From positions 5,022,001 through 5,086,000 of the forward strand of contig NC_092650.1 of the NCBI RefSeq assembly GCF_032118995.1: 64,000 nucleotides of DNA, read 5' to 3'. The DNA is from Asterias amurensis (Eukaryota; Echinodermata; Asteroidea; Forcipulatida; Asteriidae). The notes under the pieces are model-generated. The model saw only the letters and a list, made by a program, of their open reading frames with translations, ran no database searches and was not told the origin of the DNA. Below are positions 8,137 through 64,000 of this stretch, one piece after another. Position numbers and translations under genes: made by a program. Each line of letters opens with the position of its first letter. The first letter of the stretch is position 1.

Positions 8137-8516
8137 ATGATCGACACCCTTCGTGGTCACTGGTGGTACAGTCCCTGACTACTCACTCACTCAGTCCATG
8201 GCTCATCTACAGTGCTAGCCCCATAAATAGTGCAAAATACGCTGGATTTACTCCGCTTCTTGGCCCTACACCTAACTCTCTCCAGGAGGCAAAATCCTTT
8301 TAGGATTAGAAAAAACATTTTATATGCTGATACCTTCCCCTAGTCATGCTAGTTGTGTCACTTATACACTTGTTGAGAGCACATTAATGTGCCCGCTCGT
8401 TTTGGTGTATATTTACGAAATATGTTGCACAAAAAACAGAACTAGAACTAGGACGATAGTGGAACGAACAAGTAGTCTGCACCAAGATGTTTATTGATGT
8501 GCAAGCCTTTAGAGTG

Positions 8517-8745: not shown

Positions 8746-8749
8746 GTTG

Positions 8750-9556: not shown

Positions 9557-9603
9557 TCGCCGCAATCACGACAGAATGTGTATCAGCATCAAGCAGCACG
9601 GAC

Positions 9604-9787
9604 TAAAGGTTGGTCACACAGGCCCCGATAACGATAATGAAAACGAAAACGATAAAAATGCACGCCCTCGATTGGATGGATGAGCATGGGGGAATTCTGC
9701 GTGGAGCATTTCAACCAATCGAGTGCGTGCATTTTTATAGTTATCATTTTTTTTCCTCGTTATTGGGGCCTGTGTGACCGGACCTTA
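9604..9787. mobile_element. MITE with about 30-bp inverted ends
   Basis: The left end carries GGTTGGTCACACAGGCCCCG and the right end, reversed, carries GGTCCGGTCACACAGGCCCC. Both continue into ATAACGA. A second mirrored motif (TCGATTGG and CCAATCGA near 9670 and 9715) lies inside. It is non-coding, 184 bp. Confidence 0.65.
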
Positions 9788-9848
9788 AGACTGCGCGCTG
9801 TAGCAACACAAAAAGAATAGCGAATGAAATCGTCGCTCGCGATGCAGA

Positions 9849-10275
9849 TTTCAGACAACTCGTCCAGCGGACAGCTCAACAGTCAGACACACCAACAGGT
9901 CTGATTACTCGACTTGTCAGACAACTCGACAGCTTGACAAGCCATCACTGAGATTTCAGTGAGACAACTATAGACGGAGTGCCAAGACAACAGATGAAAG
10001 ACTGATCCACAAACATTACTGACATCACTCGGCATACTCAATCTGATCAAAAGTAGACATGTCTCGTGGTTGGGGATCGTGCGTACCATACCCCCCGTTA
10101 GGATTTGTAGGAAATTTGTGTGTAAAAAAAAAGTGTCATTAACGGAGGTCCCTTCAACTGCGACATGTCTTGGCCATCTGTCAAGTTGTCTCAAAGTCGA
10201 GTTGTCTGACCCGGTCGAGTTGTCCGAATAGTCGAGCTGTCTCAACTGTCGAGTTGTTCGAACCGTCTAGGTGTC
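9849..10275. mobile_element. Foldback MITE with subterminal repeats (family E), copy 2
   Basis: Clustered CAGACAACTCG-like motifs at 9849-9960 are mirrored by GAGTTGTCTGA-like motifs at 10170-10275. The ~210-bp centre differs from that of copy 1. Four or more repeats of the motif sit in each arm, so the arms look like small tandem arrays. Confidence 0.55.
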
Positions 10276-10305
10276 TGATATCCCATAATATTATTAGACT
10301 CACAG

Positions 10306-35217: not shown

Positions 35218-38200
35218 TCACACTCCTATTGGCACGTTTTCTGTGTGTGTTTCTACCGGCAAGAAGATTCGAAGTCTCTGTTCAATGTCTGCTCGACAGT
35301 GAGGACACGCCTCCACCTGTTCCGCGCAGACGCTGCACAACAGATGGCCGCAGGGGAAGAAAGCTGTATCCAGCGTTGTTGACATACACACCTTGCACGT
35401 GAAGCCGTTTGTCAGCGTTTCCAGTTTCTCTTTCAATGACTTTAAGTTAGTGTCCTCATCTTCATCCGACATTGTACACGCACTGTTCTCTTGGTCAGGC
35501 AGATCACTGAATGTCACACGCTGCATTTCTGAGCACCCAGCGACATGCAGCTTCCTCTTTGTACTGTCATAAACCTCTCTCCATGTCCGCTGAACGTCAA
35601 ACATGAACTTTTTGCCATACTCGGTGTTCTCAGTGAAGATAGATGCCAGAGTTCCCCTGAAGTCACGCACACACTCAGCTCGGATCTGTTGCTGCACTGT
35701 GTCACAGATAAAGAACTCGTGCTTCTCGGTGACCGCTCGGTACAACGCTTCAGTCACCTCTCTACTCGGGAGTTTCACAGAGAGTGTCATTGGGCTTACT
35801 TCACCATTTGCCTCATGGGGGTACGTTACACTGAAACACTTTCCATTGATTGACTCCTTCAGGATCAGGTCGAGTCCAATTCTGATAACAAAAAGAGGAA
35901 AGTACATCAAAGACTTGTGAAATAAAGCAGGTTTTACAACTTTTCTTAGAATCTTTACAACTCTGACACAAAGACAATCAACCAAGTTTGAAAACCATAT
36001 TACTACCAGATCACAGTTAAAGGAGACACTGCAAATAATAAGAAGCTCATGATTCTGCGGGGGGCCTTCCATCAGGATTTCTAAATGCAAAATGTTTTTC
36101 CTGACAACAAAGCGCAACAAAAGTCTCCCAGCACATACCCCAGCTTTATTTCAAACAACAAAAGCCCATACAATAGATGGAAATTTGCAAAAGCCCCACA
36201 AAAGCCCATGTTACGCTTCACTGATATTTTCCACGAGTTCATAACAGGAAAGCTTAGAGCTACACTTAGGTATGTTCAGTACATTTAAATACCAAACAAC
36301 AAAAATGCCACGATCTGTCAAGGGACCCCCTACTACATGATGTATAATGTCAAGGCTACACTCCATTTAGAAACTTTTTATAAAAATCTTTTAGTGGCAC
36401 TCTTTTAGAGTTTTCTCATCAGCATAAGTTGTTTTTTTATGTTCTAAAGTAGAGAGTTTAATCTCAACCAACTGTGTGTATTATATTCTATGACATTAGT
36501 TAATTAACTTCCATGAGATTTGTAATAATACTGTATCGGTAGACATATATTCTGGAGTAATGTAATGATTTATTATTGACGTGACTGATTCATACAAGAT
36601 ACAAGATTAATGTTACTGGGGAGAGTCCTGGATTGACCTAGTGACGTATTAAGGTCACGGTATATTACTGCGCTGTGTGTATATAAAGTAGTACCTTCAC
36701 AACCTCCCTTTTTCGAGAAATTCATATAATAAAATGGCTTGCTAAATGAAGGACTATTTTGGCATATTGAAATCAATAAAAATTGAGAACACTGGTCCAA
36801 AATACTTCAATGAGCGAGATCCAATGATATAAATGTTGTCACATGTATGCAAGAACAGTAAACATACTTTTGAGTTGTTTGGGGTTTAAGTGGACTCCAG
36901 TTTTGTACAACATGCAAACTCTGAATTACAAAGCAGCAATCACTTTCCAAACTGTCATTGGGAAGCGACTTTTGCATTTAAGTAAGCATGGTATTCAAAA
37001 TCAAATGGGTTTTAATATTCAACTGGTTTTATTGCCTTCTAACAAAAAATTAGTTGGCTACATCAATCTCTCACTCACCTCTGCAAGCACTCTACTTTGG
37101 GTTCATCGGAATAAAGATGTATGCCCTGGGGCCCAACACCAAAGAGAACACTGCCTTGACTGGTGTCCCTCGCATGATACAGCTCCATACCGTAGCTGTC
37201 CAACAACGACGCCTCCTGCAGAAACTTATTCTCTGCCTGAGATGGTTTCATCCCTCGTAAGCGTACATGCTCTGCCATGACTTGGGTGATGAACTCATCA
37301 CTGCAGATCCTGCGTGGCAGACATGTGTAATGAGGGGTCTCCGGTCTGTAGTTGCCCTGCTCGGCCTGGGCAAGGAGGGCGGCGAGATGGGCAATTTCCT
37401 TCACGGAGGCCAAGAGTTTACCATTGATGAGGTCCAGTTTTACATCTTGGAAAAACAGCCGTCTGAGGAAAGAACACAAAAATAGTCAATGGGCTTAGCA
37501 AACACACGCACATTTCATTTAATTTGCTTTCTTTCTATTGGTTTACTTTATTTACAATAAAACTCAAACACCTGAATCAGATTTCTGATTTGCTGTATAA
37601 ACATAATTTTAGCTGTGAATAGTAGGCTTAATGCAGCAATGGATACTTTTGTTTTAAGACAATCAAATTACAATATCAACACTCCGATTTAAGTAAAATC
37701 TGCCATTAATATTAATTTGATTGCTGTAACATAAAGTAAAAAAAACAAAATACAACATCAATTAGTTCTATCCTAAATGAATATCTGACCCTCTTAGTTA
37801 ATGAGGAGCATGGATGCATAAATGGTCATGTATCCACATGTACACACTGTACATGTACATAGTAATCCCAAGAGGTAAAAGGCAAAAACTTAATTAATAT
37901 TCATGTTTTATCAACGGCTGCCCATGAAACAGAGGCCACGTTGACCATGGCCTGTGTTGCCCCAGGTTAATGGCCTTGTCCTCTCAAAGGTGAAACACAA
38001 TAAATGCCTCTTGCTGATGTCATAAAAAAAAAAACCTTGAATATTCATTACGCACTCAATAACATTTTCTCAGTATTACAATAGGCAATTGTTTAGTTGT
38101 GCTTTCACTCAATGACAAACAAATCTTACTAGATAAGGATCTATGGCACTGAATGGAAGATTCATGTTTAATTAAACCACACACTGTACACAGCCACGCA

Positions 38201-45872: not shown

Positions 45873-46043
45873 ATGGCATGTCCAAGAATTCTTTCACAAT
45901 CTGTGAACCTGTGTTCTAGAGTATGCAGGGTGTCTGCTTGGGCTACTGCACGTCCGCATTTATTGAACTCTTCATCAAAAATAACAAGGCAGCAAAGTCT
46001 TCCAGTGCCACGACAATTTAGCACATCAACTTCTGGGGTGTTG
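45873..46043 (+). CDS. Putative first coding exon of a nuclear-encoded mitochondrial protein (partial)
   Basis: Starts at ATG 45873 in a strong context (CAACATGGC), with an in-frame stop 27 bases upstream. It encodes 57 residues rich in Arg, Ser, Leu and Ala and almost free of acids, ending PRQFSTSTSGVL, which is typical of a cleavable mitochondrial matrix presequence (an R-x-F/S-type cleavage region). A donor-like TTG/GTAAAAG follows at 46044, leaving phase 0. No second exon is recognised before the window end; if the gene is real its intron contains the giant repeat element. The mature protein cannot be named from a presequence. A spurious open frame remains possible. Confidence 0.5.
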
Positions 46044-46386
46044 GTAAAAGTCGGAGGTCGGAGGTAGCCGGAGGTAGCCGGAGGTTGCGTTAATTGCGTG
46101 ATATTTAATTTAAAAAGATTACTTACACACTCAGATTGAAGTTTGGAAGACTCTTATGCAGTTTACGGGGATTAAAATTCAATTCTGTACCCATTGGGTG
46201 GGGGAAAACTATGCCCCCACGGTACGAACCGACTGGTCGTGTGGAGTACTTGTGTTGAGTAAACAAGGTCACACTGTAGCGCCCTCAAAAAAAAAACGGA
46301 GGTGTGTTTACGCAACGTGTAGTTGGTGCGTACATGCCTATACACGCACCACGCATGAACCCTGCAGTAATATGGTGTATTTAGAC
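46044..46386 (+). repeat. Degenerate outer edge of the left array
   Basis: GGTAAAAGTCGGAGGT at 46043-46058 matches 15 of 16 bases of the array word GGTAAAAGCCGGAGGT. It is followed by three GGAGGTAGCC-like short repeats. Later, ACTGGTCGTGTGGAGTAC resembles the array word TATGGTCGTGTGAAGCAT. The rest is diverged and contains a small hairpin (GTGGGGG / CCCCCAC, about 46201-46220). Confidence 0.45.
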
Positions 46387-49300
46387 TAACAGCCGGAGGT
46401 TAATTTTATTTCTTTATTACTCCTCAGAAAATTACAACAAAATCACAAACGACTCTCTATGTATGTCACCTTATAACCATTATTTTTTTACATTTTTATT
46501 ATTTATGAAAAAGGACTAAAATAATTGCGTCTTTTGATAGCCCGTCTTCACTAGGCCTATGCAGTGTACACACGTACAGTGTACGCCGTATGGTCGTGTG
46601 AAGCATTTATTTTTTATTTTTGACTAGATGGTAAAAGCCGGAGGTAACCTTTTTTTTCTTTATTACTCCTCGGAAAATTACCAAAAAATCACAAACGACT
46701 CTCTATGTATATCACCTGATAACCAATATTTTTTTACATTTTTATTATTTATGAAAAAGGACTAAAATAATTGCGTCTTTTGATAGCCCGTCTTCACTAG
46801 GCCTATGCAGTGTACACACGTACAGTGTACGCCGTATGGTCGTGTGAAGCATTTATTTTTTATTTTTGACTAGATGGTAAAAGCCGGAGGTAACCTTTTT
46901 TTTCTTTATTACTCCTCGGAAAATTACCAAAAAATCACAAACGACTCTCTATGTATGTCACCTTCAAACTATAATTTTTTTACATTTTTATTATTTATGA
47001 AAAAGGACTAAAAAAATTACGTCTTTCGATAGCCCGTCTTCACTAGGCCTATGCAGCGTACACACGTACAGTGTACACCATTCGATCGTGTGAAGCTCTA
47101 TTTTTGACTAGATGGTAAAAGCCGGAGGTAACCTTTTTTTTCTTTATTACTCCTCGGAAAATTACCCAAAAATCACAAACGACTCTCTATGTATATCACC
47201 TGATAACCAATATTTTTTTACATTTTTATTATTTATGAAAAAGGACTAAAATAATTGCGTCTTTTGATAGCCCGTCTTCACTAGGCCTATGCAGTGTACA
47301 CACGTACAGTGTACGCCGTATGGTCGTGTGAAGCATTTATTTTTTATTTTTGACTAGATGGTAAAAGCCGGAGGTAACCTTTTTTTTCTTTATTACTCCT
47401 CGGAAAATTACCAAAAAATCACAAACGACTCTCTATGTATGTCACCTTAAAACTATAATTTTTTTACATTTTTATTATTTATGAAAAAGGACTAAAAAAA
47501 TTACGTCTTTCGATAGCCCGTCTTCACTAGGCCTATGCAGCGTACACACACGTACAGTGTACACCGTATGGTCGTGTGAAGCATTTATTTTTATTTTTGA
47601 CTAGATGGTAAAAGCCGGAGGTAACCTTTTTTTTCTTTATTACTCCTCGGAAAATTACCAAAAAATCACAAACGACTCTCTATGTATGTCACCTGATAAC
47701 CCATATTTTTTTACATTTTTATTATTTATGAAAAAGGACTAAAATAATTGCGTCTTTTGATAGCCCGTCTTCACTAGGCCTATGCAGTGTACACACGTAC
47801 AGTGTACACCATACGGTCGTGTGAAGCATTATTTTTGACTAGATGGTAAAAGCCGGAGGTAACCTTTTTTTTCTTCATTATTTCTCGGAAAATTACCAAA
47901 AAATCACAAACGACTCTCTATGTATGTCACCTTATAACCATTATTTTTTTACATTTTTATTATTTATGAAAAAGGACTAAAAAAATTACGTCTTTCGATA
48001 GCCCGTCTTCACTAGGCCTATGCAGCGTACACACGTACAGTGTACACCATTCGATCGTGTGAAGCTCTATTTTTGACTAGATGGTAAAAGCCGGAGGTAA
48101 CCTTTTTTTTCTTTATTACTCCTCGGAAAATTACCCAAAAATCACAAACGACTCTCTATGTATATCACCTGATAACCAATATTTTTTTACATTTTTATTA
48201 TTTATGAAAAAGGACTAAAATAATTGCGTCTTTTGATAGCCCGTCTTCACTAGGCCTATGCAGTGTACACACGTACAGTGTACGCCGTATGGTCGTGTGA
48301 AGCATTTATTTTTTATTTTTGACTAGATGGTAAAAGCCGGAGGTAACCTTTTTTTTCTTTATTACTCCTCGGAAAATTACCAAAAAATCACAAACGACTC
48401 TCTATGTATGTCACCTTAAAACTATAATTTTTTTACATTTTTATTATTTATGAAAAAGGACTAAAAAAATTACGTCTTTCGATAGCCCGTCTTCACTAGG
48501 CCTATGCAGCGTACACACACGTACAGTGTACACCGTATGGTCGTGTGAAGCATTTATTTTTATTTTTGACTAGATGGTAAAAGCCGGAGGTAACCTTTTT
48601 TTTCTTTATTACTCCTCGGAAAATTACCAAAAAATCACAAACGACTCTCTATGTATGTCACCTGATAACCCATATTTTTTTACATTTTTATTATTTATGA
48701 AAAAGGACTAAAATAATTGCGTCTTTTGATAGCCCGTCTTCACTAGGCCTATGCAGTGTACACACGTACAGTGTACACCATACGGTCGTGTGAAGCATTA
48801 TTTTTGACTAGATGGTAAAAGCCGGAGGTAACCTTTTTTTTCTTCATTATTTCTCGGAAAATTACCAAAAAATCACAAACGACTCTCTATGTATGTCACC
48901 TTATAACCATTATTTTTTTACATTTTTATTATTTATGAAAAAGGACTAAAAAAATTACGTCTTTCGATAGCCCGTCTTCACTAGGCCTATGCAGCGTACA
49001 CACGTACAGTGTACACCATTCGATCGTGTGAAGCTCTATTTTTGACTAGATGGTAAAAGCCGGAGGTAACCTTTTTTTTCTTTATTACTCCTCGGAAAAT
49101 TACCAAAAAATCACAAACGACTCTCTATGTATATCACCTGATAACCAATATTTTTTTACATTTTTATTATTTATGAAAAAGGACTAAAATAATTGCGTCT
49201 TTCGATAGCCCGTCTTCACTAGGCCTATGCAGCGTACACACGTACAGTGTACACCATTCGGTCGTGTGAAGCATTATTTTTGACTAGATGGTAAAAGCCG

Positions 49301-51640
49301 GAGGTAACCTTTTTTTTCTTTATTACTCCTCGGAAAATTACCAAAAAATCACAAACGACTCTCTATGTATATCACCTGATAACCAATATTTTTTTACATT
49401 TTTATTATTTATGAAAAAGGACTAAAATAATTACGTCTTTTGATAGCCCGTCTTCACTAGGCCTATGCAGCGTACATGTACACACGTTCAGTGTACACCA
49501 TACGGTCGTGTGAAGCATTATTTTTGACTAGATGGTAAAAGCCGGAGGTAACCTTTTTTTTCTTCATTACTTCTCGGAAAATTACCAAAAAATCACAAAC
49601 GACTCTCTAAGTATGCCACCTGATAACTATTATTTTTTACATTTTTATTATTTACGAAAAAGGAAAAAAATCACGTCTTTTAATAGCCCGTCTTCACTAG
49701 GCCTATGCAGCGTACACACGTATAGTGTACACCATTCGGTCGTGTGAAGCTTTTATTTTTTATTTTTGACTAGATGGTAAAAGCCGGAGGTAACCTTTTT
49801 TTTCTTTATTACTCCTCGGAAAATTACCAAAAAATCACAAACGACTCTCTATGTATGTCACCTGATAACCAATATTTTTTTACATTTTTATTATTTATTA
49901 AAAAGGACTCAAAAAATTACGTCTTTCGATAGCCCGTCTTCACTAGGCCTATGCAGTGTACACACGTACAGTGTACACCGTATGGTCGTGTGAAGCATTT
50001 ATTTTACTTTTGACTGGATGGTAAAAGCCGGAGGTAACCTCTTTGTTCTTTATTACTTCTCGGAAAATTACCAAAAAATCACAAACGACTCTCTATGTAT
50101 GTCACCTTATAACCATTATTTTTTCACATTTTTATTATTTATGAAAAAGGACTAAAAAAATTACGTCTTTTGATAGCCCGTCTTCACTAGGCCTATGCAG
50201 TGTACACACGTACAGTGTACACCGTATGGTCGTGTGAAGCATTTATTTTTTATTTTTGACTAGATGGTAAAAGCCGGAGGTAACCTTTTTTTTCTTTATT
50301 ACTCCTCGGAAAATTACCAAAAAATCACAAACGACTCTCTATGTATGTCACCTTATAACCATTATTTTTTTATATTTTTATTATTTATGAAAAAGGACTA
50401 AAATAATTACGTCTTTTGATAGCCCGTCTTCACTAGGCCTATGCAGCTTACATGTACACACGTACAGTGTACACCATACGGTCGTGTGAAGCATTATTTT
50501 TGACTAGATGGTAAAAGCCGGAGGTAACCTTTTTTTTCTTTATTACTCGTCGGAAAATTACCAAAAAATCACAAACGACTCTCTATGTATGTCACCTTAT
50601 AACCATTATTTTTTTACATTTTTATTATTTATGAAAAAGGACTAAAAAAATTACGTCTTTTGATAGCCCGTCTTCACTAGGCCTATGCAGCGTACACACA
50701 CTTACAGTGTACACCATTCGGTCGTGTGAAGCTTTTATTTTTTATTTTTGACTAGATGGTAAAAGCCGGAGGTAACCTTTTTTTTCTTTATTACTCCTCG
50801 GAAAATTACCCAAAAATCACAAACGACTCTCTATGTATGTCACCTGATAACCAATATTTTTTTACATTTTTATTATTTATTAAAAAGGACTCAAAAAATT
50901 ACGTCTTTCGATAGCCCATCTTCACTAGGCCTATGCAGTGTACACACGTACAGTGTACGCCGTATGGTCGTGTGAAGCATTTATTTTTTATTTTTGACTA
51001 GATGGTAAAAGCCGGAGGTAACCTTTTTTTTCTTTATTACTCCTCGGAAAATTACCAAAAAATCACAAACGACTCTCTATGTATGTCACCTTAAAACTAT
51101 AATTTTTTTACATTTTTATTATTTATGAAAAAGGACTAAAAAAATTACGTCTTTCGATAGCCCGTCTTCACTAGGCCTATGCAGCGTACACACACGTACA
51201 GTGTACACCGTATGGTCGTGTGAAGCTTTTATTTTTATTTTTGACTAGATGGTAAAAGCCGGAGGTAACCTTTTTTTTCTTTATTACTCCTCGGAAAATT
51301 ACCAAAAAATCACAAACGACTCTCTATGTATGTCACCTGATAACCAATATTCTTTTACATTTTTATTATTTATAAAAAAGGACTAAAATAATTACGTCTT
51401 TTGATAGCCCGTCTTTACTAGGCCTATGCAGCGTACACACGTACAGTGTACACCATTCGGTCGTGTGAAGCATTTATTTTTATTTTTGACTAGATGGTAA
51501 AAGCCGGAGGTAACCTTTTTTTTCTTTATTACTCGTCGGAAAATTACCCCAAAAATAACAAAACTACTCTCTATTCATGTCACCTTATAACCATCATTTT
51601 TTTTAACCTTAAATTTTTATTTATCAAAAAGGGCAAAATA
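46387..51640 (+). repeat. Tandem array A, about 21 units of 238-248 bp (left arm)
   Basis: Unit starts (GACTAGATGGTAAAAGCC) fall at 46622, 46868, 47106, 47352, 47599, 47837, 48075, 48321, 48568, 48806, 49044, 49282, 49526, 49768, 50012, 50258, 50502, 50750, 50996, 51243 and 51488. A first, more diverged unit begins near 46387. Two length classes (about 238 and 246) come from an optional TTTATTTT near the end of the unit. Every unit has an AT-rich middle, AGCCCGTCTTCACTAGGCCT and a GTACACACGTACAGTGTAC block. Identity between units is high by eye. There is no coding capacity. Confidence 0.95.
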
Positions 51641-52087
51641 CATGGGTGAGGCAAACTATAGGCCTACATTATGACTCTAGATTCTCCACCTTTTCCCCCA
51701 CCTCTTCCCATTCTTGATACTGTCGTTTGTGTTTCCATCTTCTTGTGGTCAAGCCAGTCCCTGCCCTTCAACACCGCCTTTGTCCCCCTTATTAAAGAAT
51801 TGAATCTTCGAGACAGTCGTTTTCAAGTTACTTTGAAAAAAAGTGCATTCATACTAAATCAAAATGGGCAAACAAAACAGTGGGTGATGCCAATTACTAC
51901 ATTATGGTTCCAGATTGTGAAACATTTCACACAAACTTAATATTGTTTACACCTAATGCCACGAAGCTTTGTGACAGTCGTTTTTTCAGTTAACTTTGAA
52001 ATGAAAAATCATAATATTTAGTTTGCATCCGACAAACCAATTTCGAAGGGGTAAACAAAACAACTGGTGATGCAAATTCCTTCCATG
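51641..52087 (+). repeat. Degenerate tandem repeat B, left part
   Basis: From about 51780, about two copies of a ~160-bp unit with ACAGTCGTTTTCAAGTTAC, CAAAATGGGCAAACAAAAC and CCAGATTGTGAAACATTTCA. It is much more diverged than array A and continues at 52453-52620 and 57964-60110. Confidence 0.65.
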
Positions 52088-52452
52088 TCAGACAAACACA
52101 CTTTTTTATCTCGCGTCTTCCGATTTTGATAAAAATTGCTGTGCGTGTAGGTCCTAACGAGCAATGAAGGCACACCAATTTTTAGCCCGATCAGACTTAC
52201 CATGTGGTCAGGGCAGAAACCATTAAAATTTGATACCAAATTTGCATACAATGTCGTGATAATTGACATGGTTATGACATATTTTACCAAAAGGGAGCTA
52301 ATTTACCCCAAAAATGTCAGAGTTTAGTGGTTTCTGCCCTGACCACATAAAAAAATATGTGCGCATTCATTACTCAATATAAGGACCTACAACCACAGCA
52401 ATTTTGTTTCAAAATCGGAAGACATGAGGTAAAAAAGTGCGTTGGTCTGGCA
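52088..52452. mobile_element. Foldback MITE with ~125-bp arms inside repeat B
   Basis: The arms 52088-52215 and 52320-52452 are reverse complements (CACACTTTTTTATCTCGCGT against CGCACTTTTTTACCTCATGT; GTCTTCCGATTTTGA and TGTGGTCAGGGCAGAAACCA shared). The central ~105 bp is single-copy. It interrupts a repeat B unit. Confidence 0.7.
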
Positions 52453-52620
52453 ATGAATGACCCTAAGTTCCAGATTGTAAATCAATCAACACTGAAACTT
52501 ATTTACCATACGCTTTCAGAAAATCTTAAGCCACTAATCTTTGTGACTGACGTTTTCAAGTTTGGAAAAAAAAAGTTTGTTTCAGAACATTTAGGGTGTG
52601 TGCATATTTAATACAATTGT
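52453..52620 (+). repeat. Degenerate tandem repeat B, fragment
   Basis: One partial unit with TTCCAGATTGTAAATCAATC and CTTTGTGACTGACGTTTTCA, cut off by the LINE cluster. Confidence 0.55.
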
Positions 52621-53960
52621 TTTTAAGTTGTAATGTTATTGTTGCCATTTCAATAAGACAATGGGTTGGGCATGGGTGTAATCTTATAATTTCTCTGTTG
52701 TTTCTGTCCGGGAGCATGCTGAGTGTCATTTGCGCCTTACTGTTGTTCCTTATTTCAACTCTTACAAGAGGCGTTTATTTGGTTGATTTATTGGTTTCCC
52801 CCTTTTTTTCTCCTCCTTTTTTTCTCTGTTGTTTGGGATTTTTCCTAGATGACGAGAGTGGGTTTCGTTTGGTTGGGTTCTGGGCTTCGGGCGGGTCGGG
52901 TTTATTCACTCCAAAACCACGGGGTGGCGCGTTTGTTTGCTCCATATTTACGGCGTTTCATATGCAATTACTTTGGTCTAAAAAAAAAAAATTGTTTGGT
53001 TTGTACAGCGATGACATGTATAACTTTGAGTAAAATGCTATTCCCTCTTCCCCTCCATTGTTATGGTCGCTATGTTTTCTAGCCCTCTCTCGATAGCCTC
53101 CATAAACTGCCGAGGTTTGGGCAACCAAGCAAAACGTACAGATGTTTTTCATTTTCTTAAGTCGACAAATTATTTGTTTGTGTATCGTTTGCAAGATGTA
53201 CATTTCGATAAGGAGATAAAAGACATTGTTAAGAATGAATGGGGTTCTAGACTGCTGCTTTAGTTCCTTTAAGAGTTATGCTCGAGGCGTAGCCATTTTG
53301 TTCAATTAAAATTTTGAGTATAGAGTCAAGAATGTTAAGACTGATTGTAATGGTAATATGCTTGTTCTCGATTTGGAAATTTGTGATTTACAGGGCAAGA
53401 CTCTCACTAACTTGTATGGTCCCAACACAGATGACCCAATTCTAGGTACAAACAGTTTTCTTTTCAAAATCAACAGGCTGAACTCTAATTTATGTACCTT
53501 TTGTAATTATCAGGACGAGACTCTTATCAATTTTTTGCTCATGTGGCGCTACAATTTCTTTATGGACAGCAGTTGCTTCATTACATGGATTAATTAAAAA
53601 ACTTAGCTAAACATCATCCTTGACCATGAAACGTTTTTATTTGGCAAAACAGACTTATCGTGTAAAGCTACTCACCTTATTTTATTATTTTCCCGTTTTC
53701 ATATCTACAAAATGAAAAAGTCTAGAACAGACCACCCTTCTAAGTTTACAAAACAGAACTAAAAAATTATTATGCCATGGAAACATTTATTTCTTATCTT
53801 TTCTTTTCCAAGTTTATTGTTTTAAGTGTTAATTCTCTCTTAAAAAACGCTGTTTCTTGCTTTCATTATTACTGTATCTTTGTTTTGACGATCTGATGTA
53901 CGTTTTTGTGAAACGTTGAAAATAAACCATCATCCACCGGCAAAAAAACAAAAAAACAAA
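52621..53960 (+). mobile_element. Internally deleted L1/Tx1-like LINE
   Basis: After a 5' UTR-like stretch, frames at 53063-53430 encode the start of an apurinic endonuclease domain (SINCRGLGNQAKRTDVFHF, then LTNLYGPNTDDP). Directly after that, 53430-53597 encodes a C-terminal LINE motif (LCTFCNYQDETLINFLLMW). The whole reverse transcriptase between them is missing. An in-frame stop and a frameshift split the endonuclease part. An A-rich 3' end lies at about 53940-53960. Confidence 0.65.
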
Positions 53961-55981
53961 CGAATTTCTTTACTGAGGTTCACAATAGTAAAACATTTCC
54001 CCAAAATTTCAACGCAAAAGTCGGCAGCGATTGGGAGCCTTGGGATGGTAATTTAGTCAAGTTCGGGTGTGGCGAGAGGAATACAAGAGGCGAAAAACTC
54101 ACCAGGTTCAAACAACCCAAGTTTAGCCGTGAGTGGACATGGAAATCCCCAGATGGATTAACAAGAAACAAAATTGACTATGTACTCATTCAGCAGAACT
54201 GGAAAAGCTGCATCTACAACTCACGCAGCTACCCCAGTGCACATGTTGGAGGTTAGACCAAAAGCAACCAAATGCCCACGTTTTGAAGTGTCAAAACTCA
54301 AGTCAACAGAGACAAAAGACAAATACAAAGTGACAATAGGAGGAAGATTCCAGCCTCTTCTAGACATCCCAGATACGAATGTTGGGGTTGATGTCTTCTG
54401 TCTTCTTGATAATGATATCGGGCTATCAAAACTTTCCCAGAAGAAGGAGAAGAACCAAGTTATATCCTGTTGGATGAAGTTCACCGAGCTATTAGACACC
54501 TCAAGACAGGCAAAGCCCCAGAGCTAAAAGTAACAGGAGAAATAGGCACTAAAATCATACACAAACTGTGCAACAAAATATGGGACACAGGTGAAATTCC
54601 ACAGGAGTGGGGGAGAGCCACAATTGAACCCATCTACAAGGAAAAGGACAAGTTGGATTGCTCCAACTACAGTTGGATTGCTCCAACTATCAGCCTCCCT
54701 AGCCTGGCAGGAAAAGTCTTTGGCAGCATATTACACAGACGAGTGCAGACCCAAACAGAAAACATCCTAGCTGAATCACAAGCAGACCAGGACGTAGCAC
54801 CACCGACCAACTCTTCACTTTAAGACAGTAAGCAGAAAAGTATAATGAGATAAGAAAACCTTTATACTGCTGTTACATCGATTATCAAAAGGCTTTTGAC
54901 AGTCTGGCAGGAGGGTCTCCGGCAAGCCATGCGACACCTGGGCTACCCATCAAAAACGGTAGATCTCATAAGAGCTCTCTACGGTGTACCCCAAAGCGCT
55001 GTACGAGTTAATGGGGAACTCACTTCATGGTTCACTACCACAACAGGAGTCCGGCAGGGATGTATACTGTCCCCAACTCTTCAACATCATCCTGGAACTG
55101 GTATTGAGACTTGCGATTCAAGCTCAACAGATTAGTGCAAGAGTGCAAGGGCAATATATCAACAATCTTCGTTTCTGGCAGAAAACGAAGAAGACCTCCA
55201 GTTTTTAGTTTCAGAGGTTGATACCTTCAGCAAGAAGTTTGGTCTGACAATAAACAGAAGCAAAACTGTAGTCCAAGTCCTTAACAGAGTTAAGATCCAG
55301 CTTAACATCCAGACAGATGGTAAATCCTTGGACCAAGTCGAAAACTTCATCTACTTGGGGGGTGTGATTTCAGAAATCCCCACCAGTGAAACTGACATCA
55401 AACGTAGATGTTTGGACTTGCCATGGGGGCTATGCAAAAGCTAAACTCTATATGAACATCCAAAGACATCAATAATTCAACATAGCTTAATCTTTACAGA
55501 GTCTTGGTTCTACCAATAGCCACCTACAGCTCCGAAACATTGACACTAAAGAAAGCAGATGAACAGATATTAAGGGTTTTCGAGATGGCCTGCTTGAGGA
55601 AAATACTAGGGGTCACCAGAAGGGACAGACTTCGCAACACAAGAGTACGTGAACTGCTTCAATACAATAAAGATCTTCCAACTTCAATTATGAAAACTAA
55701 ACTCAATTATTTTGGGCATGTGAACAGAATGGGCAATGGCCGATACCCCCCAAAATACTTCTCGAAGGCCACATTGCAGGAAACAGACCGAGATGAAGAC
55801 CAGGGAAACGATGGCTAGAAGATATCAAGCACTTCTGTGAAGAGGCTGACATATCCATCTCTGACAGCAGCAGGACACCTATATAGCAAGGAACAGAGAC
55901 CTATGGAGACTCTTAGTTGGGAAGCCATCCCCGGGATCTACCCTGGGGAGGACGGCTATGATGATAATGATGATGATGATG
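53961..55981 (+). mobile_element. RTE-clade LINE, degenerate, with (ATG)n-type tail
   Basis: Frames in order give an endonuclease end (RNKIDYVLIQQNWKSCIYNS), reverse transcriptase blocks (AIRHLKTGKAPE, CCYIDYQKAFDS, TTTGVRQGCILSP) and a C-terminal part (ACLRKILGVTRRDRLRNT, NYFGHVNRMGNGRYPP). It is broken by numerous stops and frameshifts. The tail is GATGATAATGATGATGATGA, typical of RTE elements. The FADD catalytic box region is lost or frameshifted. Confidence 0.75.
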
Positions 55982-57963
55982 TTAGATAATTCCAACCTTC
56001 AACAACATGTTACTTCGTCTCCTCATATCGCTGGACATACATTGGATTTACTGATTTCTAATGTCACTGATGATTTAATTTCTTCGGTTTCAACTCATCA
56101 TGATCTTCCTTCTGACCATGCTGCTGTGAAGTGTCTGATTAATTGCTCGCCCTCAAGCATCAACTAAGCCATTAGTTACTCGCAAACTTCGTTCAATTGA
56201 TATGCCTTATTTTAAATCTGATATTTGTAACTCTTCTTTGATGACGGATCCTGCCATCGATTTAGATGAACTTGTTTTGCCATACGATTCTGTTCTTAAG
56301 GATGTTCTAGATAATCATGCTCCAGAAGTTCTATAAAAACTGTAATACTACGCCCTCATGCTCCATGGTATTGCGATACTTTATGTGCGGCAAAGCATGA
56401 AACGTTGTCGTGAGCGAAAGTGGATAAAATCTGGCCTTGCTGTACATCACGAGTTGTATAAAGAACAGTGTACTATATACAGAGACCTTGTAAACAATAG
56501 CAAATCTAATTATCATCGCCGTCAAATATCCGAGTGCAACCAACGAAGTCTGTTCCGTGTTATCGACAAGCTTTCTTCTCCGAAGTGTTTGAAAAAGCTT
56601 CCAAGTTTTTATAATCCTGTTGATCTCGCCAACAATTTTGCTAGTTTCTTCGAAAACAAAATTAAGAAATTGTATGGCAGATTTGATAATATTCGTCCAT
56701 CACCCATCTCCTTTGACATTCATGATCATTGTATTTCGTCACTCGCCACTCGATCAAATCTTGTTCGGTTATCTCCTGCAAGCTGGACCCTCTGCCATTA
56801 ACTGTTTTTAAGGAGTGCTATTCTGAATTGCTGCCAGTCTTCACAGAGATTATTAATAGATCTTTGTCTTTTGGTTATTTCCTTGATCATCTTAAGGAGG
56901 CTTGCATCCTTCCACTTCTGAAAAAGCAACATTTGGACCCAGAGTGTTTGTCAAATTATCGTCAATTCTCTAACTTGAGATTCATCTCCAAATTGATTGA
57001 GCGTGCTGTTGTTAGTCAACTTCATGACTATCTCCATGAAAATAACCTCCATGCATAAATGCAGTCTGCTTATCGCCCTTTCCACAGTACTGAGACTGCT
57101 CTTGTTCGTGTGTATGACGAAATCTTACGTGCACTGGACAACCATAAGGAAGCAATCCTCGTGCTGTTAGATTTTTCAGATGCATTTGACACTATCAACC
57201 ATGAGCATCTCATTCAACGTTTATCTTCACGCTATGGAATTACTGGAACTGCCCTTAACTGGTTCTCTTCTTCTCTGAACAACAGAACCCAGCATGTTCT
57301 CATCAACAATGTTAAATCAGATCGCCATCATCTCTGGTGTAGTGTTCCACAAGGTTCTGTAGCTGGGCCACTTGAATTTATATTGTTCAGTGCACCCTTG
57401 CCAGACCTCATTGCTGCCCATGGTATTTCTAGTGTTGCTTACGCTGACGACGCCCAGCTTTACATTGCATTTGATCCAGTTGATCGCGCTTCTGCCATTG
57501 CAAAAGTTGAAGTGTGCATTCAAGATGTCAAATATTGGGCGTGTCAAATAAACTTGCTTTGAAGGACTCAAAAACTGAGATTTTATTTTTGCGATCTCGT
57601 TTCGCAAAAAAAGATTTCTCCGCCAACAGTACAAATTGCCCAGTCTGTCATTGAACCATCTGAATTTGCCCGTAACTTCGGTGTTATTATGGATTCGTCA
57701 TTGTGCATGAGTAGACATGTTGTTAATGTTTGCAAAGGAGCTCTCATGGCTATTAGGAAAATATCACAAATTCGACGCCACCTGGATGAAGCAACTACTC
57801 TTCGTCTTGTTCACGCCATCGTCACTACTAGACTTGACTCCTGCAATTCACTTCTGTTAGGACTCCCCGATAAAGATCTTGCTTAAATTCAACGTATACA
57901 GAACGCTGCTGCTCGCCTGGTTTCTTGCGTGCTTCGTTCTCACCATATTACACCTGTACTAAT
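55982..57963 (+). mobile_element. L2-clade LINE, 5' and 3' truncated
   Basis: Contains the end of the endonuclease (LPSDHAAVKCL) and reverse transcriptase blocks (LSNYRQFSNLRFISKLIERA, QSAYRPFHSTETALVRVY, LLDFSDAFDTINHEH, SVPQGSVAGPLEF and the YADD box at about 57440). A C-terminal region nearly identical to 8770-9130 follows. Several stops interrupt it. It begins at the simple tail of the RTE copy and stops abruptly at 57963, lacking the last ~430 bp of coding/3' UTR present in the copy at 8750-9556. Confidence 0.75.
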
Positions 57964-60110
57964 GCAGACAAACTTATAATTTATAAAATATTAAGGAAAT
58001 CTACTGTCACGCAACATCAGGACAGTATTTTTCAGGTTACTGAAATAAAATAGCAACTATCCGACAAAACGAAATCAAAGGAGTAAACTTAATAACAGGT
58101 AATGCAAAGTTCTATATACTATCGGTTCCAGATTGTGAAACATTTGACGAGAACTAAATTCCCACAATAAAATCTTGAGACACGAAGCTTAAGGGCAGTC
58201 ATTTTCAGGTTACTTTGAACAAAAAAATAAGTAAAAATACACGCATTACACAAAGGAGAAAAGCACATCGGGTGCGGCCAATTCATATTATGTTCTAGAG
58301 TGTGAAATATTTCAAACAAACTTACTTACGAAAAGATTTGAGAAATCTCATGCCACAAAGTTTTGTGACATTCCTTCCACTAGTTACTTGGGAAGATGCT
58401 ATAGTCTGCAGCATTCACACTAACTCCAAAGGGTAAAAACAATACGAAAGGTGATTTGCATTTCTTAATTCTTCTGTTCTAGACAACTTACAAAAATACT
58501 GAAGAATTTTTTGGTCACGACATGTGACAGTCGTTTTAGGTCATTTTGAAAAAAAAATAAAAGTGATAATTAGTTTGCATCCGACAAACAAATGTCAAAG
58601 GGGTAAACAAAACAACGGGCGATGCTTAAACTTATTAAAAAAACACAAAGATTTCAGATTATCTTAAGCCACTAATCTTTGTGACAGTCGAGTTTTCAAG
58701 TTTGAAAAAAATAGATTTGCATTAACGGTTAATCCAAATGGGAAAACCAAGCAACGGTTGATGCAAATTCCTATATTACGGTTCCAGACTGGACACGTTT
58801 CAAAGAAATCAATCTTGTTTTACATGTTATGACACGAAGCTCTGTGACATTCGTTTTCAGGTCACTTTCAAATAAAAATTTTTTATAATAATTTAGTTTT
58901 GAACTTCTATTTTCAAACTTTTCCAGAAAATCTAAGGCCACTAATCGTTTTTGGCTGACGTTCTCAAGCTTGATAAAACAAGTTTGCATTTTCACACTAA
59001 ATCCAAATGGGAAAACAAAGAGCGGGTGATTTAATTTTTTTTTTTTGGAGGTTCAAAATTGTGAAACATTTCACACAAACTTAACCAACAAAATTGATAA
59101 CAATAGTTAGCTTTTGATACACTAATTTCAGGTAAACAAAACAACGGGTGATGCATATTCCTTTATAACGGTTAGAAAATATAAATCTTTCCACATTCAA
59201 ACTTATTTACAAAAATATTTGAGAACATCCAGTTTTCAGTGACGCTAAATCCAAAAAGGAAACCAAAACAAAAGTTGCTGCAAATTCCTACAAAATAAAT
59301 TCAGAACACAAAGTTCTCACTCACACTAAATCCAAATGGGAAAACAAAACAACAGTTGCTGCAAATTCCTATATTACGGTTCAAGATTGTGAATCATTTC
59401 ACACAGGCTTAATTTTAAAATAAATTGAGAACATCTTATGCCACAAAGCTTTAGGACAGTAATTTTCAGGTTACTTGAAAATAATAATAACTATAGTTTG
59501 CATCCGACAAACTTATAGACAGGTAATGCAAAAGTCCAGATTGTGAAACATTTCACAGAGATTAAGTTTTGCCGCAAAAAATTAACAAACGATTTTCCCC
59601 CAAAAATTCAACAAACGAGGCTTTACGACAGATATTTTCAGGTTACTATGAAAAAAAAAAAAATTTTGCATTTACCGAAGCGGAAGAACAATACAAAGGA
59701 TGAGACAAAATTTTATTTTACGGTTCTAGATTTTGAAACGTTTTACAACAATGGATTTTTAATTTTGTGTGCGTAATGAAGCTTTGTGATTGTAGTTTCA
59801 GGTTGCATTCGAAATCTTTTCAAAGGCAAACAAACAAAACCCGGGTGACGCATATTAATGAGGTTCTAGATAGTGAAACCTGTCAAACATTAACTTATTT
59901 GCACATTCAAACAGTTTGAAGAAAGTAATCCGCCACACGAAGCTTTGCGACATTCGTTTTCGAGTCACTTTTAAAACGTATTTTTGGCATTCACACCACT
60001 ATTTGCATCCACATCAAAAAAGCATGGGTAGTGCACATTATATCAAAGTTCCACATTGGGCCTACATGTCACACTTAACTTAATTACAAAAAGGACTGAA
60101 GAAATGCAAT
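57964..60110 (+). repeat. Degenerate tandem repeat B, right part, about 13 units
   Basis: The motif GTGACAGTCGTTTTCAGGT or variants recurs near 58020, 58194, 58367, 58526, 58682, 58846, 59454, 59618, 59786 and 59946, with spacings of about 156-174 bp between neighbours. Other shared words are AAACAAAACAACGGGTGATG and GGTTCCAGATTGTGAAACAT. The units are strongly diverged. It is non-coding. Confidence 0.7.
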
Positions 60111-60440
60111 ACAGGTTATGTGGTTCTACTTTAAAACAAACAGTTGTCCTTCAAATTTCGAAGGAAGGCAAAGTAAGAGTGATAAAACGAAACTTCCCGA
60201 CAACTGTTAACGGCTGATATGCCTATACTGGACGTAAAAATAACACAATGTTATTTTCCTCGCGTTAATACTTGGTAATATTCATGCAGTCGTATTTTCA
60301 TGTCACTTTAACGGCGTGGAAAACTAGTTGGTAGTTGACAAAAGTAAATAAGTTTGCAGAAAGATTTAATGTCACCTAACAGTCACCTAACATAAAAACA
60401 AGAACTGAATAACTTAGAATGATTCGGTCAGGTTGTTGTT
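60111..60440 (-). other. 3' flank of the transposase gene
   Basis: Non-coding sequence between repeat B and the end of the PHD-like reading frame. Terminator or polyadenylation signals for the minus-strand gene are not evident. Confidence 0.35.
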
Positions 60441-60773
60441 TCACAGATTACTTTCCACACTACATTTGTCGCACATCCAATGGCTTTCGTCTATCTTCTT
60501 AGCAAATCCGCTTTGCGAAACACATTCGACGGGAAGCCAATCCAAACAGCCCTCACAAAATAGCATTTTTCTTGGTTTTGGTGGCTTCAAACAAGCGTCA
60601 CCTACATAACAAGTTGACCACGTGGCTTCAATTAAACTAGTTTTGATACTTGTTAAGTATGACATAGTATCATTGCCTCGTGGTGGCTGTCTACATATTT
60701 TCAGGCTATTCGCGCAACTAAATTCCGGTGTCGGTACTTTAATTGTTGGCATTTTCCTGAACGAAACGCGCAC
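60441..60773 (-). CDS. PHD-like zinc module, in frame after the transposase stop
   Basis: This 110-codon open frame starts with the codon directly after the TAG that ends the 845-aa protein and is in the same frame, so it reads as a detached C-terminal domain. Cysteines are spaced CYVGDAC, FCEGC, VEC and MCDKC, matching a PHD finger. The histidine expected before the third pair is a proline (LDWLPVEC), so zinc binding may be impaired. PHD fingers usually bind histone H3 tails. Whether read-through, a separate internal start (ATG at about 60750) or decay applies is unknown. Confidence 0.55.
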   Translation of the reverse strand: MRVSFRKMPTIKVPTPEFSCANSLKICRQPPRGNDTMSYLTSIKTSLIEATWSTCYVGDACLKPPKPRKMLFCEGCLDWLPVECVSQSGFAKKIDESHWMCDKCSVESNL

Positions 60774-63311
60774 CTATCGTCTAATCCACGTGGCTTGCAA
60801 AGGGGAGTCATCATTTAATAAAGTGTCTGCAACCCAGTCTCTCATTCGTGGCATATCTGACTGGCTATAACCGCCATGCTTGCCGCGTATAATAGCATGT
60901 CCCGCAGCGCACACGAACACACCGCAATCGTCACCATTTGCCTGATAGGGTGTGTCGATTGGCAAATACACGCACCATCCAGAATTGTCAAAAGTCTTGC
61001 CGTATGTGGCAGTAAGAAGTGCCTGGTACATGTCCAAAAAATGTGCGGCACTCAAAGCATTATCCCCATGCATCGAGTCAACGACTATTACCTGGCGCAA
61101 CTTCCTCACCAAAACAACAAGTATCCAATGATTTCCCCGCACTAACAGAGGGCAAAGCCACACATCCTTTTCAAACACACGATGAACGAGACACCACTTC
61201 ATCACAAACTCAACCTCCCCTTTCTCCCAAGCAGCAAACACGTGAGAGTCTGCAACAAGAAACTTAACGGCGCTCTCAGCCGTTTGTTGCAGATTACATT
61301 TTTCAAGGAATGCCAAAATTACAGCTTCTGTCAGCCAGCAAGCCGGCGACAGCGAAGCAAGATCCGTCAAGTTCACATGGAATGGCCCCACTGCGCAAAT
61401 AACGGATGCCCCCTTTTTGACATGTCCAAGTTTAAACTGGCAAATTTTCCAGGGAGTGTCAGTTTGTGTGTCGTCTCGTTCAGGGTTGTCTTGTTCCGGA
61501 GCAAATGATTTGTTTGTGTGTTGAGAGTTTGGCGTGGAAGTTACGACAGGAGAGAAGTTAGGCGCAAATGATGATGATGGAATGTTTGGCGACGATGGAG
61601 GAGATCCTTCACTCATGTTCCAAGTATCTTCCACCATCGTTGCCTTAATAGAGTCGGGGGCACATGTAATGTCTACATCATCAACCCTGGGTTTTTTTCT
61701 CCCGGATTTGTTCCTTTGTCGCCTGTTTCGTTTAAGAGTTGACAGATTGATGTTTCTTCTGCCGGAAACTCCAGGGGGCATACCTACTGCCAGCCTGCAT
61801 GCAATAATATGGTAGCAGGTTCCCTTGGAGAGACAGGGGCAGAACTCATCAGGAAAGAGCGTTACCGAGTAGTGGTTTCCCTTCGAACCTTGCACTAAAA
61901 ATACGCTCTTCTCGGCAACGCAACTTATCCTGTTATTGTTAATGACCATGCGGGCAAGGCTTAACTGGCTCCTGCAATCAGAATTGATTGACGGTTGTTT
62001 TGGAGCCATAGCCTTTGCTTCCATGACAGCCTCTACAACGGTATCTGGGTTGCTCATCATGAAAGGAAAAACGGTGTCAGAGACACTGCGTCTGAAGTTT
62101 GCATGTTTTGATTTCAACCTGAAATTACCCAAACAACAAAAAACACGCAGTATTTCGTTGTAAAAGAAATTTTGCAGGTAGAACAAAATGAGGACCATGT
62201 TGTCGAGGGCGACCTCCTTCCTATCAACAACTCGTTTGATTACGGCGTTGAAGCTCTCACTGGCATTAGTCGTAATACCAGAATCACTAGTGTAGAGGTT
62301 CAAACGTTCCAAAACCCATCTACCTGTTGAAGACAAGATCGTCGGTTCAAGCTCTAAAAGAAAGTAGTCAAGAAAAGCTTTACTCCACTGGATCTTTAGC
62401 CTGTCTCTGACATCATGGTACTCATTTTGTGTTTCACACATAAGAAGTTCTTTGAAAAAGACAGGGGGTACAGGGTCACTTACAAATAAGCTATGTCGCA
62501 TGGTGAGAACAGAAACATAAAAATCACCCAAATTAAAGGTTGTGTCATATGATACTACGAGGGTGTCTTCCCGTTTGCCAAGTTTGTCGAGTTCCTGTAA
62601 TATCTCCGGCAAACCAACACAAACAACGAGTTCCGGAAGAACCGTAAAATGGAAAATGAAATCACCTAGTTGTTCATCAAGCTGGTACACATTAAACATT
62701 TCGTCATGCGACAGCCGCTTCTTTGCCCTTTCAAACTTTACTTTATTCCTTACTTGTGCCGTGTCTTTTGGATGAAGTACGGGCACACTTTCAGATGGAA
62801 CATTGGTGGAAGTAAGGTTCTTATATATAGCATGTGGAGTTTTGATCTCCGAATCTTCTGCCACTTTCTTTAAAACAGAAGGGCATGTTCTGACATGAGG
62901 ACGAGTGGGTTGCCGTTTAGCATTGCCATGTGGAATGTCTTCACTCCCATAGACTGCTCTATCATTGCCAGTATACTGAATGAGCACTAAAGCGCTAGGT
63001 CCTTGGACAAGATGGAATGCATGTCGTTTAAAGGTATCACCACTAGCATTGGTATGACTATGGTATATTTTTCGCACTCGTGCATCTCCCTTATCAGGAT
63101 ACAGCCTGGCTCCTCCGTGCTTCCACTTTATCTGGTCACATCTCCAGTCTTGGTTAGCGCCTGGATTTTTTGCCCAAGAAAACAAGAAGACGTCACCCCC
63201 CTTTGGATGGACAGGTGATTCGCTAATGACCTTTGACATATCGGGGTTTAGAAGCAGTTTTTCGGCTTCTGCGGTTTTGAAACCCATGTGCCGTGACATG
63301 TAGCGAGCCAT
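60774..63311 (-). CDS. MULE-type transposase fused to SWIM finger and Ulp1 (C48) protease
   Basis: An intronless 845-aa frame. Residues about 56-118 (WRCDQIKWKHGG, then HAFHLVQGPSALVLIQY) resemble a CG-1-type DNA-binding fold, a tentative call. The DDE core begins at 254-262 (SYDTTFNL, D256) and ends near E352 (NASESFNAV). The middle part, which in related proteins holds the second aspartate (VTD.E) and a C-x2-H motif, is absent: PVPPVFF at 281-286 runs straight into KELLMCETQ. A SWIM finger lies at 491-501 (CPC, CYH). A Ser/Pro-rich linker with a basic nuclear-signal-like RKKPR follows. The C48 protease has its complete catalytic set: H728, D745, Q790 and C796 (YQANGDDCGVF). It is transcribed inward from the right array. 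Transposition by this copy alone is unlikely; the SUMO-type protease looks intact. Confidence 0.85.
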   Translation of the reverse strand: MARYMSRHMGFKTAEAEKLLLNPDMSKVISESPVHPKGGDVFLFSWAKNPGANQDWRCDQIKWKHGGARLYPDKGDARVRKIYHSHTNASGDTFKRHAFHLVQGPSALVLIQYTGNDRAVYGSEDIPHGNAKRQPTRPHVRTCPSVLKKVAEDSEIKTPHAIYKNLTSTNVPSESVPVLHPKDTAQVRNKVKFERAKKRLSHDEMFNVYQLDEQLGDFIFHFTVLPELVVCVGLPEILQELDKLGKREDTLVVSYDTTFNLGDFYVSVLTMRHSLFVSDPVPPVFFKELLMCETQNEYHDVRDRLKIQWSKAFLDYFLLELEPTILSSTGRWVLERLNLYTSDSGITTNASESFNAVIKRVVDRKEVALDNMVLILFYLQNFFYNEILRVFCCLGNFRLKSKHANFRRSVSDTVFPFMMSNPDTVVEAVMEAKAMAPKQPSINSDCRSQLSLARMVINNNRISCVAEKSVFLVQGSKGNHYSVTLFPDEFCPCLSKGTCYHIIACRLAVGMPPGVSGRRNINLSTLKRNRRQRNKSGRKKPRVDDVDITCAPDSIKATMVEDTWNMSEGSPPSSPNIPSSSFAPNFSPVVTSTPNSQHTNKSFAPEQDNPERDDTQTDTPWKICQFKLGHVKKGASVICAVGPFHVNLTDLASLSPACWLTEAVILAFLEKCNLQQTAESAVKFLVADSHVFAAWEKGEVEFVMKWCLVHRVFEKDVWLCPLLVRGNHWILVVLVRKLRQVIVVDSMHGDNALSAAHFLDMYQALLTATYGKTFDNSGWCVYLPIDTPYQANGDDCGVFVCAAGHAIIRGKHGGYSQSDMPRMRDWVADTLLNDDSPLQATWIRR

Positions 63312-63652
63312 TTCAAACTGAGATCAACAACGCGAAGGTTGTAGGTAACTAAGACAGTATATAAAACAAACAAAAAGTATAGAACAAACTGTAAACAATG
63401 GATGTGCCGGGGTTCAGCGAAAATCTTTGAAGTTTTAAAACAAACCGATATTGGGCCTAGTTAGGTATGATATGTATTTGTTGAATGTTTAAAAGGGAAA
63501 TAAAATGTACGCGTAATAAATAAGTACCTATATAAACAAACTTGAAGATAAACAGGCTTGTACACGCTCCGATTTACCACAAAACAACTTATTGCAGTCA
63601 GAGAAGAAGACGCACAATAAACTCGTGTTTGAACAAACTGAAAGATTAACAG
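63312..63652 (-). promoter_or_regulatory. Promoter/5' UTR region of the transposase gene
   Basis: Only 341 bp separate the transposase ATG (63311) from the first unit of the inverted array, so promoter activity must come from this stretch or from the array. No clear TATA box or initiator is visible. The label rests on position. Confidence 0.3.
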
Positions 63653-64000
63653 GTCAAAAATAAAAAATAAATGCTTCACACGACCATACGGCGTACACTG
63701 TACGTGTGTACACTGCATAGGCCTAGTGAAGACGGGCTATCGAAAGACGTAAATTTTTGAGTCCTTTTTAATAAATAATAAAAATGTAAAAAAATATTGG
63801 TTATCAGGTGACATACATAGAGAGTCGTTTGTGATTTTTTGGTAATTTTCCGAGGAGTAATAAAGAAAAAAAAGGTTACCTCCGGCTTTTACCATCTAGT
63901 CAAAAATAAAAAATAAAAGCTTCACACGACCGAATGGTGTACACTGTAAGTGTGTGTACGCTGCATAGGCCTAGTGAAGACGGGCTATCAAAAGACGTAA
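63653..64000 (-). repeat. Tandem array A, inverted (start of right arm, continues beyond window)
   Basis: One complete and one partial ~245-bp unit, reverse-complemented relative to 46387-51640. The inner unit carries the variant TATTAAAAAGGACTC together with GTGTACGCCGTATGG, the same combination as the left unit at 50750. The next one carries CACACACTTACAG, as in the left unit at 50502. The order is thus conserved. Confidence 0.95.

Follow-up and report, generated by a model that had tools for sequence, protein, structure and literature searches.

MULE-superfamily transposons are flanked by target-site duplications of 8-11 bp, usually 9 bp. Among them, Rehavkus elements are characterized by a PHD finger, a minisatellite before the 3' terminal inverted repeat (TIR), 9-bp duplications and TIRs of 26-400 bp (PMC6446971, Table 1), and Rehavkus-1_TC of Tribolium castaneum has inverted termini with TCsat23 arrays, whose 164-bp monomer is present mostly in five and eight copies (PMC10218199). 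Tandem repeats also occur in the termini of other transposons. Tetris/DAIBAM of Drosophila virilis combines a terminal domain with ~220-bp tandem repeats in both TIRs (PMC4079207), and Tm1, a Mutator/Foldback element of the Phantom subclass from Meloidogyne, has composite TIRs with tandem motifs and duplications of 8-10 bp (PMC3169594). It has been proposed that the TIR dynamics of Galileo, a Drosophila element of the P superfamily, reflect repair of one TIR from another, with exchange and conversion between the ends (PMC3573991). The evolution of long, repetitive inverted ends in unrelated transposons is discussed, but its cause is not settled. Here we describe a transposon with long tandem-array arms in the sea star Asterias amurensis, found in a stretch of 64,000 nucleotides (the window; GCF_032118995.1, contig NC_092650.1, here C3:5022001-5086000). 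All arm comparisons are based on this single assembly of 491.5 Mb in 23 contigs (491,506,623 bases).

We refer to the element in the window (C3) as copy A, to its sister copies as B (C3) and C (C15) and to an older copy as D (C16). Copy A is probably a low-copy Rehavkus-like MULE whose arms turn over locally and are sometimes rewritten from arm to arm, with a recent arm-long transfer in copy A. It occupies 46036-68377 in window coordinates (22,342 bp). From the ~350 bp of the right arm in view, the preliminary description of the window had predicted that this arm would continue for about 4.6 kb and end in a diverged terminal unit; it runs 4,377 bp past the window edge to 68377 (C3:5090377), does end in such a unit and matches the left terminus exactly over its final 350 bp. 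Both tips open with GGGTGTTGGTAAAAGTCGGAGGTC. The left terminal domain (46036-46387, + strand), in which CGGAGGT motifs are clustered, is followed by the left tandem array (46388-51638, + strand). It has 22 anchored units, which measure 238-248 bp except for a truncated innermost one (~143 bp); TRF placed this array at 46387-51603, with a period of 246 and 21.4 copies. The inner end of the right array lies in the window at 63653-64000 (- strand), and the interior of ~12 kb between the arrays (51639-63652) is common to the two sister copies at about 99.3-99.5%.

The right array, with 18 units to 68377, is collinear over its whole length with the outer part of the left array. In the same order in both arms, the unit lengths are 342, 242, 246, 238, 246, 247, 238, 238, 246, 247, 238, 238, 238 (left only), 244, 242, 244, 246, 244 and 248 bp. 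Over 4,725 aligned bp, identity between the arms is 99.64%, with 17 mismatches and with gaps limited to the left-only 238-bp unit and 5 bp at the inner edge of the aligned stretch. Two unit pairs that the preliminary description had given as about 99-100% identical match at 249 of 249 (50502-50750 and 63901-64149) and 244 of 247 positions (50750-50997 and 63653-63900). Ten of the 17 mismatches lie inside one unit, which looks as if it had been replaced by a sibling unit, and the other seven are scattered. In a test of unit order, the longest common run at ≤1 difference comprised 15 of 18 units, which none of 2000 shuffles reached (maximum 11). We therefore reject independent amplification of each arm as the origin of the order in copy A, as had been argued from the window alone. 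The trimmed units AL19 and AR18 have only 3 differences, so the order match extends to the inner end of the right arm. Inverted matching arrays round a transposase gene, as first described, are therefore present and order-matched, but the left arm is longer (22 versus 18 units) and the transposase is defective.

The 8-bp direct repeat AACTTCTG directly flanks copy A at both ends (left copy at 46028-46035, + strand; right copy at 68378-68385, outside the window). The target duplication that was to be looked for at 9 bp is thus present, but at 8 bp in copy A: a 9-bp duplication requires a right end that is shorter by one base than the left one, and an equal-ended 9-bp reading fits 2 of 9 positions. 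For copies B and C, 9-bp candidates match at 8 of 9 and 7 of 9 positions, respectively, compared with chance levels for random 9-mers of 0.0002 (≥8/9) and 0.0022 (≥7/9), uncorrected for the registers tried. An 8-bp flanking duplication (AACCATTT) is also found at C11:49205-49414, a 210-bp miniature with related tips.

The search for further copies and empty sites that the preliminary description had proposed yielded two further full copies, B (20,160 bp, 16 Mb from A) and C (21,927 bp), with tips and interior as in A. No second copy of the 400-bp left flank of copy A was found except for a 45-bp partial match, and hence no empty paralogue. The outermost 60 bp are identical at all six ends of A, B and C, and the flanks differ. 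The cores differ at 52/9980 (A-B), 53/9990 (A-C) and 42/10239 (B-C) positions. In the order test, at the same threshold, B (9 + 14 units) scored 3 and C (14 + 15 units) scored 1, values attained in 678 and in all of the 2000 shuffles, respectively. These unit counts, like those of nearest and distinct units below, leave out the truncated innermost left units AL22, BL10 and CL15 and omit one copy B left unit (arm offsets 10-593) that was missed by the anchor. Whole-arm correction as a rule in every copy is therefore rejected, and the unmatched arms of B and C identify arm synchrony as an event in copy A; the earlier claim that the arms are copied or corrected as a unit holds for one of the three full copies, order being no better than shuffled in the other two. 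Unit order differs among A, B and C despite cores only ~0.5% apart, which suggests that unit orders turn over fast and that the shared order in copy A is likely recent. The right arm of copy C contains a 3-unit higher-order repeat of 237/250/246 bp, present about four times, which is a local amplification. Copy B has about 1.28 kb of extra interior sequence relative to A and C (element position ~4931-6215), and copy C alone has about 1.76 kb extra on the inner side of the right array, next to the shared interior.

Because assembly of long inverted repeats is difficult, one arm of copy A might be an inverted duplicate introduced by the assembler. We regard such an artefact as highly improbable. 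The arms differ by those 17 substitutions, by one whole unit and in their inner lengths; the ends have distinct flanks and the 8-bp duplication; and the sister copies share the overall plan with other arm structures. In addition, the likely source assembly is described in PMC10625585 as PacBio HiFi, reads of which should span a 5-kb arm plus flank.

The tips provide evidence that end sequences recombine. Eight tips were compared over their first 316 bp: of the 78 pairs among 13 informative sites, 38 fail the four-gamete test, and such conflicts among haplotypes mean that the ends have recombined. The left tip of copy C is a mosaic, with 0/110 differences to the left tip of B over positions 1-110 and, past 110, 3/205 differences to the right tip of C versus 11/204 to B left. 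The right-type tip is found on both ends of A and the left type on B-left, C-left and C8, a tip haplotype distribution that weakly suggests a right-to-left transfer in copy A. The left-arm units closest to the interior are alike in A, B and C (3-8 differences) and match nothing else, and their orthology is uninformative on the direction of transfer. The opposite arm holds a strictly closer match than either other element for 33 of the 39 units of A, 14 of the 23 of B and 14 of the 29 of C, which suggests some exchange within each of these elements. Because mosaic tips show that ends recombine, between or within elements, one arm of copy A could instead have come from a different element by ectopic recombination. 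Such an origin appears quite unlikely, given that the unit order of A is found at no other locus among the matches listed for a unit query and that A units are closer to their own opposite arm more often than those of B and C.

The units of each arm resemble its tip. The sequence GATGGTAAAAGCCGGAGGT, a near-copy of the tip sequence GTTGGTAAAAGTCGGAGGT, opens all but one of the units in each arm of copy A (21 of 22 on the left, 17 of 18 on the right), the exception being the outermost unit. In total, 38 of the 40 units open in this way, which makes each arm a row of end-like sites. Genome-wide, tip matches at ≤2 mismatches occur in at least 105 places, at least 14 of them exact, compared with 5 for the reversed control. 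The motif CGGAGGT is present 27 times pointing inward in the left arm of copy A, 0 times in the interior and 23 times pointing inward in the right arm, with 2 occurrences in the 46 kb outside; the counts for left arm, middle and right arm are 16, 0 and 19 in copy B and 20, 0 and 20 in copy C. It is exact in all 63 distinct units. The tip-like site in most units is probably a transposase-binding site.

Several observations weigh against the proposed recent transfer between arms that otherwise turn over locally. If all 17 mismatches of copy A are counted singly, they compare with 24.6 expected at the A-B core rate, and arm divergence is then not significantly below that of the core (P = 0.07). 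At six left/right diagnostic sites, D has the right state at four and neither state at two, so the right type on both ends may be ancestral, which weakens the case for a right-to-left direction. A standing correction process is unneeded, since the arms of B and C are not order-matched, and the target duplications of these two copies are imperfect despite their youth. Finally, CGGAGGT is not uniquely conserved, with 35 of 233 12-base unit stretches (its own included) conserved at least as well.

The first two of these points favor inherited symmetry, in which A keeps older matched arms that were never rewritten and only B and C have since been reshuffled, and by the states of D the left-type tip seen in B, C and C8 is probably derived. 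We consider this unlikely for two reasons. With the cluster counted as one event, the arms of copy A are too alike for the age of the element (8 events versus 24.6 expected, P = 1e-4); with the cluster set aside, the 7 scattered differences compare with 23.3 expected (P = 8e-5). The arms thus look younger than the A/B split, provided that the cluster is one event and that arms and core mutate alike. Furthermore, the innermost left units are shared only among A, B and C, so that in the ancestor the inner ends of the two arms did not simply mirror each other.

We favor the following model. Each arm has a terminal domain at its outer end and then ~245-bp units in tandem, most of which carry one tip-like site, and it evolves in two modes: by local gain, loss and shuffling of units, as in the higher-order repeat and the single-unit indel, and by recombination of end sequences, as in the mosaic tips. 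In copy A, a recent arm-long transfer has probably left both arms collinear and nearly identical. Its likely route is repair of a break with the opposite inverted arm as template: an end broken in excision or replication would be rebuilt from the other arm with unit order restored, and units would expand or shrink between such events. The element is probably a cut-and-paste transposon, with copy A being non-autonomous and possibly mobilized in trans by the enzyme of B or C. A more far-reaching version, in which the terminus is self-repairing and a broken end is rewritten whole, order kept, from the other inverted array, is doubtful. If it were correct, long tandem arms would be maintained because they rescue ends; the three copies would represent stages of a single cycle, in which A would be freshly rewritten, C partly so (left tip kept, with the next ~200 bp right-like), and B and C would have been reshuffled by local amplification; and the SUMO protease and PHD reader of the transposase might couple rewriting to host repair or chromatin. 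The three young copies, with one matched and two reshuffled pairs of arms plus mosaic tips, display the process, and their comparison makes arm-to-arm rewriting testable.

The transposase of copy A is a defective open reading frame (ORF) of 845 aa with a Ulp1/C48 domain (60774-63311, - strand), and a PHD-finger segment in the same frame (60441-60773, - strand) is separated from it by a stop codon ahead of the finger. Copy A is further missing 85 codons of the frame, seen as a gap of 255 bp when the cores are aligned; the second catalytic Asp and a CxxH motif lie in the missing part. With this Asp lost and the stop present, copy A should be unable to move itself. In B and C, a frame of ~1041 aa is uninterrupted, with 0 stops over 1033 codons plus 8 in-frame codons upstream from Met, and contains a MULE DDE domain, a SWIM-like motif, a Ulp1 SUMO-protease domain and a PHD finger. 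The database protein P0001 (1034 aa, from a 6.5-kb contig) shares 97% identity and contains MULE (PF10551, 7.4e-8), Peptidase_C48 (Ulp1) and PHD (PF00628, 983-1028) domains; in sequence, its C48 part resembles chains of SENP1 and Ulp1 (best 5e-15). Residues D248, D313 and E429 and the C334-x-x-H337 motif do not vary among the 12 aligned relatives and are conserved at ≥90% in 56. The SWIM-like CxC..CxH motif (C568, C570, C576, H578) is likewise invariant in the 12 but lies outside the ≥90% columns of the 56 relatives, many of which are fragments, and the Pfam SWIM model matched 3 of the 56 and not P0001.

Among these 56 relatives, Pfam identified MULE in 47, PHD in 5 and C48 in 4, with 7 families overall. 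A CG-1 match was found below the cut-off in the window ORF; 11 of the 56 also match CG-1. No FLYWCH match was found by Pfam in the window ORF, in P0001 or among the 7 families of the 56 relatives; as the accessory domain of Phantom is listed as 'None or FLYWCH or SWIM' (PMC6446971, Table 1), the lack of FLYWCH alone does not exclude Phantom. The name Rehavkus is on none of the 56 among the matches listed, most of which are without a name, and a pattern match for transposase relatives in viral contigs returned none. One relative, P0006, has a Macro domain (PF01661). With a 1-kb query, transposase DNA was found genome-wide, among the best 5 candidates, only in A, B and C and at two decayed loci on C10 (78-82%), where no such arrays are present in the stretches read.

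By architecture (a MULE with a PHD finger and minisatellite arrays by the TIR), the element appears Rehavkus-like. The MULE domain with a D-D-E triad is present in the B and C frames and in P0001, but not in copy A, in which the second Asp is missing. Duplication length gives a mixed picture: it is a perfect 8 bp in copy A and 8 bp at the C11 miniature, against a usual 9 bp in MULEs, and the 9-bp candidates of B and C are imperfect. PHD fingers in the B and C frames and ~245-bp arrays inside both terminal domains correspond to Rehavkus traits, although the Rehavkus minisatellite was described next to the 3' TIR and arrays are found here at both ends. Compared with the Rehavkus TIR range, the array-free terminal domain is ~352 bp, whereas in copy A the inverted match extends into the array, over 4,725 bp in all. 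Rehavkus hosts tabulated in 2019 were Arthropoda and Annelida, in contrast to the sea star, although this describes the range known at the time and is no structural trait. A Ulp1/C48 domain is present here, whereas 'c48' and 'ulp1' have 0 occurrences in the available text of PMC6446971.

The preliminary description had proposed an echinoderm Rehavkus-like member with unusually long arms. The Mutator-type assignment and the long inverted tandem arms are borne out, but tandem-array termini were already known from Rehavkus-1_TC (PMC10218199), likewise a DNA transposon with tandem arrays in its inverted termini, so only arm length and order matching are unusual here. Rehavkus-1_TC is 9.5 kb with 5-8 monomers per arm, compared with 20-22 kb and about 11-22 units per arm in the sea star, and order matching between its arms is unmentioned in the available part of that report. 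Given that complete arthropod MULEs are reported as 1.9-10.0 kb (PMC13359780), our findings add a MULE-type element of 20-22 kb in an echinoderm. Relative to the open-licence literature, what is new is its size, its host, the C48 domain, which the available part of PMC6446971 does not mention for Rehavkus, and the occurrence of matched and unmatched arms among near-identical copies.

More distant elements share some of these features. As in Tetris/DAIBAM, unit and terminal domain have a short stretch in common and copy number varies (PMC4079207). Tetris/DAIBAM is, however, apparently non-autonomous, no transposase-coding copy being reported in the available text, whereas the sister copies here have a transposase frame; it also has few repeats in the element and large satellite arrays elsewhere, whereas no large free array was found here among the matches listed. 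Galileo resembles the present element in its long, internally repetitive TIRs, but has a P-element rather than a MULE transposase, and the arms described here are several times its TIRs of at least 600 bp (PMC3573991). In Tm1, as here, motif number differs between the two ends; unlike here, its repeats are motifs of 13-15 bp in an element of 1080 bp with a Phantom-type transposase (PMC3169594). The long inverted termini of tandem repeats are also a trait of Foldback (FB) elements, a likeness in structure.

Copy D is about 76-84% identical in most pieces and 89% in one, with a few units. Partial pieces include a 475-bp end on C16 (98%) and isolated tips on C8, C13 and C16. The interior of copy A contains two decayed reverse-transcriptase segments (within 54400-57900), an RVT_1 fragment of a decayed retroelement, below the Pfam cut-off, at 54854-55132 (+ strand) and a second RVT_1 fragment at 57059-57559 (+ strand). 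Both lie within the core stretch common to A, B and C and were therefore probably inserted before the copies spread. Elsewhere in the window, at 7774-10278, degenerate ~17-bp repeats (TCAGACAACTCG and its complement) occur in opposite orientations at 7789-7835, 8104-8136, 9849-9930 and 10165-10278, resembling one or two small foldback-like elements. Likely host genes are represented by a RING-finger ORF at 35221-36120 (- strand) and a C2H2 zinc-finger ORF at 2074-3429 (- strand); for 96% of its length, the zinc-finger gene has 99% identity with a gene of Asterias rubens.

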